Program-made: the position numbers and the translations under genes | DNA from: Terriglobia bacterium | Lineage (GTDB): Bacteria > Acidobacteriota > Terriglobia > Terriglobales > Acidobacteriaceae | DNA length: 64,000 nt | NCBI GenBank assembly: GCA_021324365.1 | Contig: JAJPJE010000007.1 | Span: 1-64,000 of the forward strand | Reading direction: 5' to 3' | In this document: positions 1,984 to 20,033 of the stretch, piece by piece | Layout of the letters: every line of letters starts with the position of its first letter | Numbering within the stretch: the first letter of the stretch is position 1 | The notes under the pieces: generated by a model | Database searches by the model: none | The model's input: the letters and a program-made list of their open reading frames with translations, nothing else | What the model was told of the DNA's origin: nothing

Positions 1984-2451
1984 CTAGGAGCTAACCGCTC
2001 GCTGATATGCTGCCAGGAGTTGTGGATCTTCGATCGACCCGTGATGATGCACCTGGCGCCACCGCCCGTCGATACGCCGGAAGACGCGCGTGGTACGAAT
2101 CTTCATTTCGAGGCGCGTTCCCTTCTTTTCGTAGTAGCCGCGTTCCCGCCCAACTGCATAAAAGATGTTTTCGGCGAGGTGCAGCGTGTAATCGTAAAAT
2201 TCGAAATGATAGCTGGATCCGCCATTGAAGATGCGCTCGTAGACGGGACGAATCTCCCTCCAGCCACGTTTAATTCCACCCAAGGGATTGTCCATCGCGG
2301 CTTGTGAGGAGCTGTCCCAGTTCTGCGCCATGAGATCGATGTTGCGCCGGTTCAGGGCACGGTAAAACTGGGCAAGTGCCTGTTCCGGTTGATGCAGGTT
2401 TCCGAGGTCTTCTTCCCCGGTGATTGGGTCGCTTACGACTGCTGTTTCCAC
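1984..2451 (-). CDS. NTF2-like (SnoaL/DUF4440-type) protein
   Basis: I place the start at the GTG at 2451 because AAGGAG lies 9 nt upstream of it. The reading frame continues further upstream but there it only mirrors uppS on the other strand. The 155-residue product resembles the NTF2-like fold: PEQALAQFYRALNRRNIDL, NPLGGIKRGWREIRPVYERI, then strands ending in RTTRVFRRIDGRWRQVHHHGS. Such proteins are small cone-shaped enzymes or ligand binders; no catalytic role can be assigned. It diverges from uppS with about 126 bp between them. Confidence 0.8.
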   Translation of the reverse strand: METAVVSDPITGEEDLGNLHQPEQALAQFYRALNRRNIDLMAQNWDSSSQAAMDNPLGGIKRGWREIRPVYERIFNGGSSYHFEFYDYTLHLAENIFYAVGRERGYYEKKGTRLEMKIRTTRVFRRIDGRWRQVHHHGSIEDPQLLAAYQRAVSS

Positions 2452-2577
2452 GACTGCCCTCCTTCCCTCGATTGGATTACGGTAGTGGCGGGCAAGATGA
2501 ACAAATCGTGATGTTTGCAAGTCATGAACCGGTATGGTAGGTTCAGAATCTCGGACGAGTGCTTTACGAGGTAGAGT

Positions 2578-3375
<798 letters not shown>

Positions 3376-3452
3376 CCAGGGCAGGAACAACATCTCACTG
3401 CGATGTGATGATTGTCACGGCGCGCCAAAGTCCGCTGCTGTAGTTTGCTTTC

Positions 3453-3932
3453 GTGTCTGTTCATGCTCCTTCAGCCCCTTCGTTTTCTCCCTTTTGGCCA
3501 CAGCTAAAGCGATTACGAAACGCGAGAAAAACGACCTATCTGACGCTGAACTCGCGGCGTTTTCTTCCACCGGAGGCGCGTTCGCTCGTCCTGGAAGAAG
3601 TCGAGCGAGAGAACGGCTACCGTGCATGGATCCATTGTGCGGTCGTAATGCCCCGCCAATTGCAGATGCTGCTTACTCCGCGTTGCGAGCGGGAGATGGG
3701 CCCAATCGTGATATCGGACATCATTGAAGCTATCGCGAAGCCGACTTCCGAGCGAGTGAACCGAGAGATGCACTGGCATGGGCAGGTGTGGCATCGCGAA
3801 TACCTCGAACAAGCGGTGAAAGACAGCGAATTCGAGAAATACTTCGATTGCATCTGCCGAAATCCGGAGCGTTCGGAACTGATCAGCGGGCACGAAGCTT
3901 ATCGGTGGTTATGGTTGGAGCCGGGAATGTAG
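3453..3932 (+). CDS. Degenerate REP-associated tyrosine transposase (RAYT/Y1_Tnp-like)
   Basis: The 159-residue protein follows the layout of RAYT proteins, the IS200/IS605-related HUH enzymes that act on REP palindromes: a TYLTLNSRR strand, AWIHCAVVMPRQLQMLLTP, ISDIIEAIAKPTSERVNR, VWHREYLEQAV, and a RNPERSELI helix. The two catalytic histidines expected in MPDHVHLLL are both glutamine here (MPRQLQ, residues 66-71). The tyrosine expected in the YIxxNP helix aligns with Cys133. The reading frame is nevertheless intact, so it is either a recently killed copy or a domesticated DNA-binding protein. It sits between uppS and cdsA, normally neighbours. The GTG start is uncertain. Confidence 0.75.
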   Translation: MSVHAPSAPSFSPFWPQLKRLRNARKTTYLTLNSRRFLPPEARSLVLEEVERENGYRAWIHCAVVMPRQLQMLLTPRCEREMGPIVISDIIEAIAKPTSERVNREMHWHGQVWHREYLEQAVKDSEFEKYFDCICRNPERSELISGHEAYRWLWLEPGM

Positions 3933-3973
3933 CTCCGACGTTTATAATCGCGCTTCACTGATTCACGACAGAC

Positions 3974-4867
3974 ATGAAGCGTGTTCTCACGGCAATCGTT
4001 CTCATTCCTCTCGTCCTGCTGGCAGTGCTCCGCGCTCCGGCTTCGCTGTTCGCCTTTCTCGTGGCGGTAGTCACGCTGGTAACGGTGAGCGAGTTCCTGC
4101 AACTCACGACTCATTACCAGCTACAGCCTTTTCCAAGAGTTACCTACGTGCTCGTCATTCTGCTGTTCGGCGGGATCGCGATCCAGTCCGGCCAGACGCC
4201 GTTGGTGTCCACGGCAGGGATGATGTACGGTGTGGGGTTCGCTGGGGTGATCGGCGCCTTCATCCTGCTTGTCGCCGGAATGCGCAACACGGACCTGCGC
4301 ACAGCATTTCCGGGGGCTGCGGCTTCGGCCTTTTCCATCACCTACATTGCTTTGCCCTTTGCTCTGCTGGCCCAATTGCGACAACAGTGGGCTGGTGCAA
4401 TTCTCATCCTCTATCTCCTGATCGTTGTCTGGGTCGGCGATACGGCCGCGTACTACGCTGGCCGCCTATTCGGCAGACACAAACTGGCACCGCGAATCAG
4501 TCCTGGCAAGACATGGGAAGGAACAGTCGCATCGTTCGTAGTGAGTGTGTTTGTGGGCTCGTGGTTTTTTACAAATGCCAAAGCAGTCAGCACTGCATTA
4601 CTGAAAGCACACCTCATAAGCCAGTCACAGGGATTCTTCGCGCCTCAACCGCCAGACCTAAGTACCCTTTTCATCCTGAGCGCCTTGATCAATATTGCGG
4701 CGCAACTGGGGGACCTGGTCGAATCACTTATCAAGCGCGGAGCCGGCGTCAAGGATTCGGGCGCGCTTTTGCCCGGACATGGAGGCATGCTGGACCGGGT
4801 GGACGCCCTCCTCTTTGCCGCACCGGTGCTGTGGTACTATTCGGCATTGCGGGTGCTCAGCTCCTAG
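3974..4867 (+). CDS. cdsA: Phosphatidate cytidylyltransferase (CDP-diglyceride synthase)
   Basis: CdsA joins CTP to phosphatidic acid to give CDP-diacylglycerol, the branch point of phospholipid synthesis, in the inner membrane. The 297-residue protein has several hydrophobic helices and, near residues 250-277, the family signature ESLIKRGAGVKDSGALLPGH, then GGMLDR. It also has VGDTAAYYAGRLFGRH and SPGKTWEG. Length is normal. It lies 28 bp before dxr on the same strand, the order common to many bacteria. Confidence 0.97.
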   Translation: MKRVLTAIVLIPLVLLAVLRAPASLFAFLVAVVTLVTVSEFLQLTTHYQLQPFPRVTYVLVILLFGGIAIQSGQTPLVSTAGMMYGVGFAGVIGAFILLVAGMRNTDLRTAFPGAAASAFSITYIALPFALLAQLRQQWAGAILILYLLIVVWVGDTAAYYAGRLFGRHKLAPRISPGKTWEGTVASFVVSVFVGSWFFTNAKAVSTALLKAHLISQSQGFFAPQPPDLSTLFILSALINIAAQLGDLVESLIKRGAGVKDSGALLPGHGGMLDRVDALLFAAPVLWYYSALRVLSS

Positions 4868-4894
4868 CAGGCTGATCTACTTGCATTGATTGGA

Positions 4895-6088
4895 ATGAAA
4901 CGCGTTGCCATCCTGGGCTCCACGGGATCCATCGGGCGCAGCACCCTGAGCATCGTCGAGTCCTATCCGGACCGTTTTGCTGTCATTTCTCTCGCGGCCG
5001 GTTCCAACTTGCAACTTGCATATGAACAAGCGGTGCACTGGCATCCGAAGCTGGTTTCGATGGCGCACGAACGCGACGCCGAAACACTGCGCAAGCGTCT
5101 TCGCGAAGCTGGTCATTCAGGGGCGGAAGTTCTCTCGGGAGCAGCCGGGGCGGTTCGTGTCGCCACGCACCCGGAAGTCGACTTTGTCGTCAGTGCGATC
5201 GTAGGCGTTGCCGGTCTCGAGGCCACTTACGAAGCAGTGAAAGCAGGTAAGCAGGTTGGCCTTGCGAATAAAGAAGCGCTGGTGGTTGCAGGTGAATTGA
5301 TCACTGCGGAGTCCAAACGCCAGGGCAAACCGCTGCTGCCGATCGACAGCGAGCACAATGCGGTGCACCAGTGCATGCGTGGGGGGAAGCTGCATGAAGT
5401 GGAGCGGGTATGGCTCACGGCCTCCGGCGGGCCGTTTCTGCACACGCCTGCACGTGAGTTCGACAACATTACGGTAGAACAGGCCCTGAATCATCCTACT
5501 TGGAAGATGGGGCGGCGCATTACAATAGATTCAGCCACCCTGATGAATAAAGGATTTGAGGTGATCGAGGCTTGCCGCCTGTTTGGCCTGCCTCCTCGCC
5601 AGGTAGACGTTGTGGTGCACCCGCAATCGACAATTCACTCGATGGTTGAATTTCGCGACGGCAGCGTCCTGGCGCAACTCTCGGTCACGGACATGCGCCT
5701 GCCGATTCTGTATGCGCTCACGTTTCCGGAGCGAGTGGAGAGCGATCTGCGCTTCAACATACGGGATCTGAAACAGCTCGACTTTTGCCCTCCGGATATG
5801 AATAAGTTTCCCTGCCTGCGGTTAGCGTACGAAGCAGCCGAGGCAGGCGGTTCGAAGACAATCGCGTTGAATGCGGCTGACGAAATTGCAGTAGAGGCTT
5901 TTCTGCAAGCCAGAATCTCATTCAAAGGCATTTCCCGTGTGATCGAAGCCACTTTAGGAGAAACGGTGGCATCGCATCCGGAATCTATATCGAAGGTATT
6001 GGAATTGGACGCTGAAGCTCGAGACGTCGCGCGCAACCTGGTTGAGCATATTGGTGGCGCAGTCCAGCTACCCGCCAAGCTCCACTGA
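4895..6088 (+). CDS. dxr: 1-deoxy-D-xylulose 5-phosphate reductoisomerase
   Basis: Dxr catalyses the first committed step of the MEP isoprenoid pathway, converting DXP to MEP with NADPH. The protein begins MKRVAILGSTGSIGRSTL, the dinucleotide-binding loop, and contains PIDSEHNA with the metal ligands Asp151 and Glu153, plus ASGGPF, MGRRITIDSATLMNKG and VHPQSTIHSMVEF. I use the ATG at 4895 (397 aa); an in-frame TTG three codons upstream is less likely. With uppS upstream and ispG at 11.9 kb, three isoprenoid genes lie within 11 kb. Confidence 0.97.
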   Translation: MKRVAILGSTGSIGRSTLSIVESYPDRFAVISLAAGSNLQLAYEQAVHWHPKLVSMAHERDAETLRKRLREAGHSGAEVLSGAAGAVRVATHPEVDFVVSAIVGVAGLEATYEAVKAGKQVGLANKEALVVAGELITAESKRQGKPLLPIDSEHNAVHQCMRGGKLHEVERVWLTASGGPFLHTPAREFDNITVEQALNHPTWKMGRRITIDSATLMNKGFEVIEACRLFGLPPRQVDVVVHPQSTIHSMVEFRDGSVLAQLSVTDMRLPILYALTFPERVESDLRFNIRDLKQLDFCPPDMNKFPCLRLAYEAAEAGGSKTIALNAADEIAVEAFLQARISFKGISRVIEATLGETVASHPESISKVLELDAEARDVARNLVEHIGGAVQLPAKLH

Positions 6089-19942: not shown

Positions 19943-19972
19943 CGCTGTAACGACGCCGTCCTGGTGGCTGTC

Positions 19973-19995
19973 GATGTGGGCGTCTCGCCCACATC
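19973..19995. repeat. Perfect 10-bp-stem palindrome between rmuC and pspA
   Basis: GATGTGGGCG, loop TCT, CGCCCACATC. It lies between two convergent genes and may act as a terminator in both directions, although neither side has a T-run. It resembles a REP-like dispersed element. Confidence 0.6.
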
Positions 19996-20033
19996 CACGG
20001 CTTCGCATCAGTCGGCCGAAGGCTGGCGCTACA

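Follow-up and report, generated by a model that had tools for sequence, protein, structure and literature searches.

A RAYT-family reading frame lacking its catalytic residues between uppS and cdsA of a Terriglobia bacterium, probably an immobile relic

Introduction

How a member of the RAYT (REP- or TIR-associated tyrosine transposase) family comes to lie between uppS and cdsA, with its catalytic residues replaced and its frame unbroken, is the question raised by a 64,000-nucleotide stretch of DNA from a Terriglobia bacterium (contig JAJPJE010000007.1), referred to here as the window. A preliminary description, made from the sequence alone, read the locus as a case of domestication, perhaps as a binder of REP-like palindromes. 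A 2017 work by Bertels is said to deal with domesticated RAYTs. Among the papers listed by a literature search, none presents in its title or in the visible opening of its abstract a RAYT that was retained after its catalytic residues were lost, which is no proof of absence. In this study, we compared the reading frame, its surroundings and its relatives with what would be expected of a retained protein and of a dead transposase, and we conclude that it is most likely the latter.

Results

The reading frame, its homology and its catalytic positions

The ORF lies on the forward strand at positions 3453-3932, starts with GTG at 3453, ends with TAG at 3930-3932, and comprises 159 codons with no internal stop; by eye, no Shine-Dalgarno sequence was seen upstream of the GTG. 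Its neighbours on the same strand are uppS (undecaprenyl diphosphate synthase; 2578-3375; PF01255, E=1.3e-87) upstream and cdsA (phosphatidate cytidylyltransferase; 3974-4867; PF01148, E=8.3e-59) downstream, and 598 bp (3376-3973) separate the uppS stop from the cdsA start. The 159-aa protein matches NCBIfam NF047646 with E=3.7e-9 over residues 33-152, and its best relatives, from the same bacterial family, reach E=7.1e-27. The NF047646 score of 36.6 bits is below the curated cut-off of 80 bits, which was passed by all five relatives tested (81.2 to 90.0 bits). A Pfam PF01797 search with the protein gave no match, nor did a scan for defence families. These results bear out the preliminary description in assigning the frame to the RAYT family, in finding it open over 159 codons, and in placing it between uppS and cdsA.

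At the position of the HuH motif (His-x-His), codons 69-71 (3657-3665, forward strand) read CAA TTG CAG, or Gln-Leu-Gln, within the stretch M66-P-R-Q69-L-Q71, where most relatives have MP[DEN]HVH. Codon 133 (3849-3851, forward strand), which falls in the column of the catalytic tyrosine, is TGC (Cys) within D132-C133-I-C-R-N137-P138, where the relatives have Tyr and then xxxNP. In the family profile alignment, the YIYINP of E. coli TnpAREP (PDB 4er8), whose tyrosine is Tyr115 by counting along the chain, aligns to this same column and matches the position of Cys133. The codons CAA, CAG and TGC are each one base change away from His, His and Tyr codons, respectively. Alignment to relatives and to 4er8 hence confirms the replacement of both histidines by Gln and of the tyrosine by Cys133 that had been read from the sequence, and the protein is catalytically null as judged from its residues.

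An active, divergent RAYT subfamily with relocated chemistry could look similar, and Tyr130, three residues before Cys133, is present as a candidate nucleophile. We consider this explanation hardly credible, as both HuH histidines are gone, the NF047646 score is far below the cut-off, and Tyr130 looks inherited rather than compensatory; two relatives (L007 and L068) also have Tyr in column 130, beside the normal catalytic Tyr. A sequencing or assembly error in this draft genome of 125 contigs is very improbable too, because errors would be likelier to break the frame than to make three in-frame replacements, and because both flanking genes stand in one gene order that is seen in relatives.

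Beyond the catalytic positions, the protein retains AVVMP, W113, the NP dipeptide and the C-terminal Y150, W152 and W154, and lacks the N-terminal YRRxLPH motif that is present in most relatives. The family alignment places three further replacements, Q114H, D119E and R123K, at positions that align with the REP-contact residues 95, 100 and 104 of TnpAREP, whose DNA contacts are described in the accessible part of PMC8266576. Neither His at 114 nor Lys at 123 occurs in any of 117 relatives. The D119E replacement is mild: Glu is found in 4 of the 117 and also at the same place in the 4er8 chain, where the accessible part of PMC8266576 writes the contact residue as D100. The net charge of the core is -4, compared with a mean of +0.9 in the relatives, of which 6 of 117 are as low or lower. 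At columns conserved to at least 80%, the protein differs in 22 of 43, the highest share among the 51 sequences compared. An AlphaFold2 model built from a two-row alignment only had a mean pLDDT of 44.8; two scans of viral contigs for alignment depth yielded no relative, and one scan of genome contigs yielded one (L001).

Relatives and the catalytic triad

The sample of 117 relatives was found by similarity to the 159-aa protein or to the family, and comes mostly from the same bacterial family. It derives from 118 loci, of which one without a profile match (L002) was dropped; the ORF's own copies (L006 and L086) and a repeat of L005 (L036) were left out. It includes three other RAYTs of the same genome, 50 of its members also built the profile, and 60 were hand-picked in rank order from family-search matches with some skipped. 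Within this sample, 112 relatives have the full triad, and five (L167, L187, L010, L150 and L077) have lost one residue; three of these losses replace a His, by Arg, Asp and Gln in one case each, and the other two put Cys in place of Tyr. No relative has lost two or more, so that the 159-aa ORF is alone among the sequences sampled in combining a triple loss with an unbroken frame. A stop or N within the match, or a split frame, was found in 13 of the 117, which makes broken RAYTs common here.

No orthologue was found in 398 genomes of the family, 397 of the order and 396 of the phylum, overlapping samples that each include the ORF's own genome; homologues only were returned, at most 36% identical, with E limits of 1e-10 for the family sample and 1e-13 for the order and phylum samples. 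The genus is represented by this genome only. The nearest homologues overall are about 32 to 37% identical, a distance at which synonymous sites would be saturated. According to the preliminary description, orthologues in close relatives that retain the usual HxH and Tyr would point to a recently dead transposase; relatives of this kind do exist, but they are homologues at other places and not orthologues, so that they go only part of the way towards refuting domestication. The Gln/Gln/Cys state, whose conservation had been proposed as a check on domestication, recurs in no relative.

The terminal branch leading to the 159-aa protein is 1.36 substitutions per site long (median 0.33), second to that of L003 (1.68). 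Divergence on this scale could hardly all be neutral with the frame kept open, and because the terminal branch is so long, most of it appears to have arisen under constraint, whether before or after the catalytic loss.

The uppS-cdsA junction in other genomes

A search by tblastn with the 159-aa protein (E up to 1e-3) found no RAYT at the uppS-cdsA junction of any of the 62 other genomes with a measurable junction, in which the gap, extrapolated from the ends of tblastn matches, is at most about 435 bp, compared with 598 bp here. In G026, whose CdsA and HTH neighbour resemble those of the window more closely than any others in 30 loci compared, uppS and cdsA are 3 bp apart. The survey covered 67 other genomes drawn from the 384 of 398 family genomes with a UppS match, comprising the 29 best other loci and 38 that were hand-picked with different genera favoured. 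Both genes were present in 64 of the 70 stretches fetched, and removal of the window's own locus (L037) and of a repeat of G026 (L097) left 62; the stretches from G015 (seen twice), G150, G169, G007 and G013 contain no CdsA and hence give no measurable gap. The location between uppS and cdsA, whose conservation was likewise to be expected under domestication, is thus shared by none of the 62 other genomes in which both genes lie on the fetched stretch.

Two side observations concern neighbouring arrangements. In G015 (L096), no cdsA follows uppS within the fetched stretch, and the next ORFs of at least 120 aa beyond it are on the opposite strand. In another genome of the same bacterial family, a RAYT match split into two segments that are not in the same frame (L094, 6132-6532) lies downstream of uppS-cdsA-dxr-rseP, directly after an ispG-like gene named by eye.

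The inserted DNA could also matter as DNA alone, as a spacer or as a new start site for cdsA, the frame being incidental. A TATAAT at 3943-3948, located 25 bp upstream of the cdsA start codon (ATG), was noted by eye in line with this, and it has no matching first hexamer. A two-hexamer promoter scan of 2450-4950, which covers one promoter type, finds no site (mean of 1.0 in shuffled sequence), and we regard such a role as improbable.

Flanking repeats and REP-like elements

Inverted repeats flanking the RAYT scored above every shuffle (8 shuffles each) in 16 of 20 relatives; 22 had been tried, of which one was not located and one was too short. Around ORF 3453-3932, the corresponding score was 9 and the highest of 20 shuffles scored 13, so that hairpins flanking this ORF are not above shuffled sequence. 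The 598-bp interval is single-copy: a search of the genome with the whole insertion gave no second full copy, only short matches at chance level.

The genome does contain a family of REP-like palindromes (consensus TGTGGCGCGGACATTCNTGTCCGCGC), for which the matches listed include 30 sites within 3 mismatches; a reversed control gave no sites within 3 mismatches. Copies flank an intact RAYT at positions 40046-40387 of contig C80, and sites occur on contigs C7, C15, C25, C36, C42, C79, C80 and others of this genome (G000). On the window's contig (C14), none was present within 3 mismatches among the matches listed. Elsewhere in the window, a hairpin whose foot is GTGG (ATGTGGGCG/CGCCCACAT) lies at 19964-19998. 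It has 6 places in the genome within 3 mismatches, each on both strands, and is not a clear repeat family because the control has 2 per strand. The suggestion that the protein binds REP-like palindromes appears weakened, as judged from the sequence, by the lack of hairpins or REPs in cis, by the changed contact-aligned positions and by the core charge of -4.

Codon usage, simulated decay and site contrasts

The main rival to a dead transposase is exaptation, in which the RAYT fold would be selected for a non-enzymatic role after catalysis was abandoned; the roles envisaged are binding of a nucleic acid or protein partner, or competition with the genome's intact RAYT. We hold it to be a tentative, rather unlikely reading. 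It would account for a frame that stays open despite three catalytic losses, for a GC content by codon position (0.59/0.44/0.62) that is still gene-like, and for the orientation on the same strand within a housekeeping operon. Codon usage is silent on the matter. The synonymous codon preference of the ORF (z=2.4) separates neither relic nor live gene because the three other RAYTs of this genome, one of which (L004) is itself split over frames, score alike (z of 2.0 to 2.6); eight neighbouring genes score 4.7 to 8.5.

We simulated neutral decay from eight ancestors, one of which (L073) contained a stop from the outset that the script left uncounted. At each divergence tried, an open frame with triple loss appeared in no more than 4 of 3000 runs when indels were left out and in no more than 1 of 3000 when they were allowed. 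Neutral decay that spares the frame would therefore be improbable, at most about 0.1% per gene under this model, and such a low chance of coincidence argues for exaptation. Scaled to the four single-loss relatives with open frames, the expected number of triple losses is 0.03 to 0.13, or 0.03 to 0.16 with L077 counted as open, which is low and not negligible for a locus picked as odd-looking.

A further point consistent with exaptation is that conserved core positions are mostly kept and functional ones changed. All six functional core positions differ, compared with 3 of the 17 remaining core columns that are conserved to at least 90% (P=0.0008, or P=0.018 when conditioned on the catalytic losses, as three of the six were the reason the locus was chosen). 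The first column count excluded the N-terminal columns 14-20; when these are counted as 'other', P weakens to 0.006 (conditioned 0.063), and when Q114 (82% conserved) is dropped, P is 0.002 (conditioned 0.058). The joint pattern, defined as at most 3 of the 17 other sites changed together with changes at all 3 further functional sites, arose in 0.33% of simulated triple-loss open frames without indels and in 0 of 997 with indels, a rarity that, within the model, would speak for reuse. Against exaptation, the retention of 14 or more of the 17 other conserved sites is common by itself, occurring in 27 to 48% of simulated triple-loss open frames, and conservative replacements, 9 of 13, show no significant surplus (P of 0.05 to 0.12 under neutrality). 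The altered positions that align with DNA contacts and the low core charge also count against it, as does the lack of conservation in any other genome searched.

Discussion

On this evidence, ORF 3453-3932 is most likely the relic of a RAYT, immobile and catalytically dead. A RAYT copy would have settled between uppS and cdsA in the direction of the operon in this lineage, by insertion here rather than through loss elsewhere. It now lacks the histidines that bind the metal, the tyrosine nucleophile and the residues that align with DNA contacts, together with the flanking hairpins that most relatives carry. The copy, probably inactive and presumably serving no current function, would persist because it is harmless to the operon and its frame is still unbroken. 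A dead relic explains the locus most simply, since RAYTs are commonly broken here and no sign of conservation has emerged. The only direct mark of domestication is conservation, and none was seen in any of the places open to a search. The domestication proposed in the preliminary description finds no support in these comparisons: no orthologue was found, no relative sampled has the triple loss, and no RAYT was detected at the junction in any of the 62 other genomes. If the locus is indeed a relic, it matters little, being a RAYT copy dying in place with the operon undisturbed.

Exaptation would mean more. If true, what is conserved in this RAYT would be a part other than the endonuclease, and the locus would be relevant to the question of why RAYTs are maintained in bacteria in the first place. 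The specific form of it that the locus would exemplify, a RAYT without single-stranded DNA cutting that is kept for its fold alone, in a non-enzymatic role, from within an envelope operon of one lineage, is in our estimate unlikely.

Among known systems, the ORF is related to RAYT/TnpAREP proteins (NF047646; PDB 4er8) by homology over residues 33-152 and by the retained AVVMP, W113, NP, Y150, W152 and W154. It is unlike them in having no HxH, catalytic Tyr, YRRxLPH motif or flanking REP, and in its changed contact-aligned positions. RAYTs as a class have already been called domesticated, single-copy and vertically inherited in the accessible part of PMC8049555. The acidobacterial TIRYT/TIRtron group, as presented in the part of PMC3733652 available, has flanking inverted hairpins like those of the 16 of 20 relatives scored here, and every TIRYT aligned there retains the conserved Tyr and HUH. 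In contrast to those TIRYTs, the ORF has neither Tyr nor HUH, and no terminal repeats were found around it. In the portion of PMC6006769 at hand, TnpAREP-like sequences without the core motifs were set aside as non-functional (722 of 924 were kept), being filtered out there and not described one by one. It is these set-aside sequences that the window's ORF resembles, as a homologue without the HuH and Y motifs.
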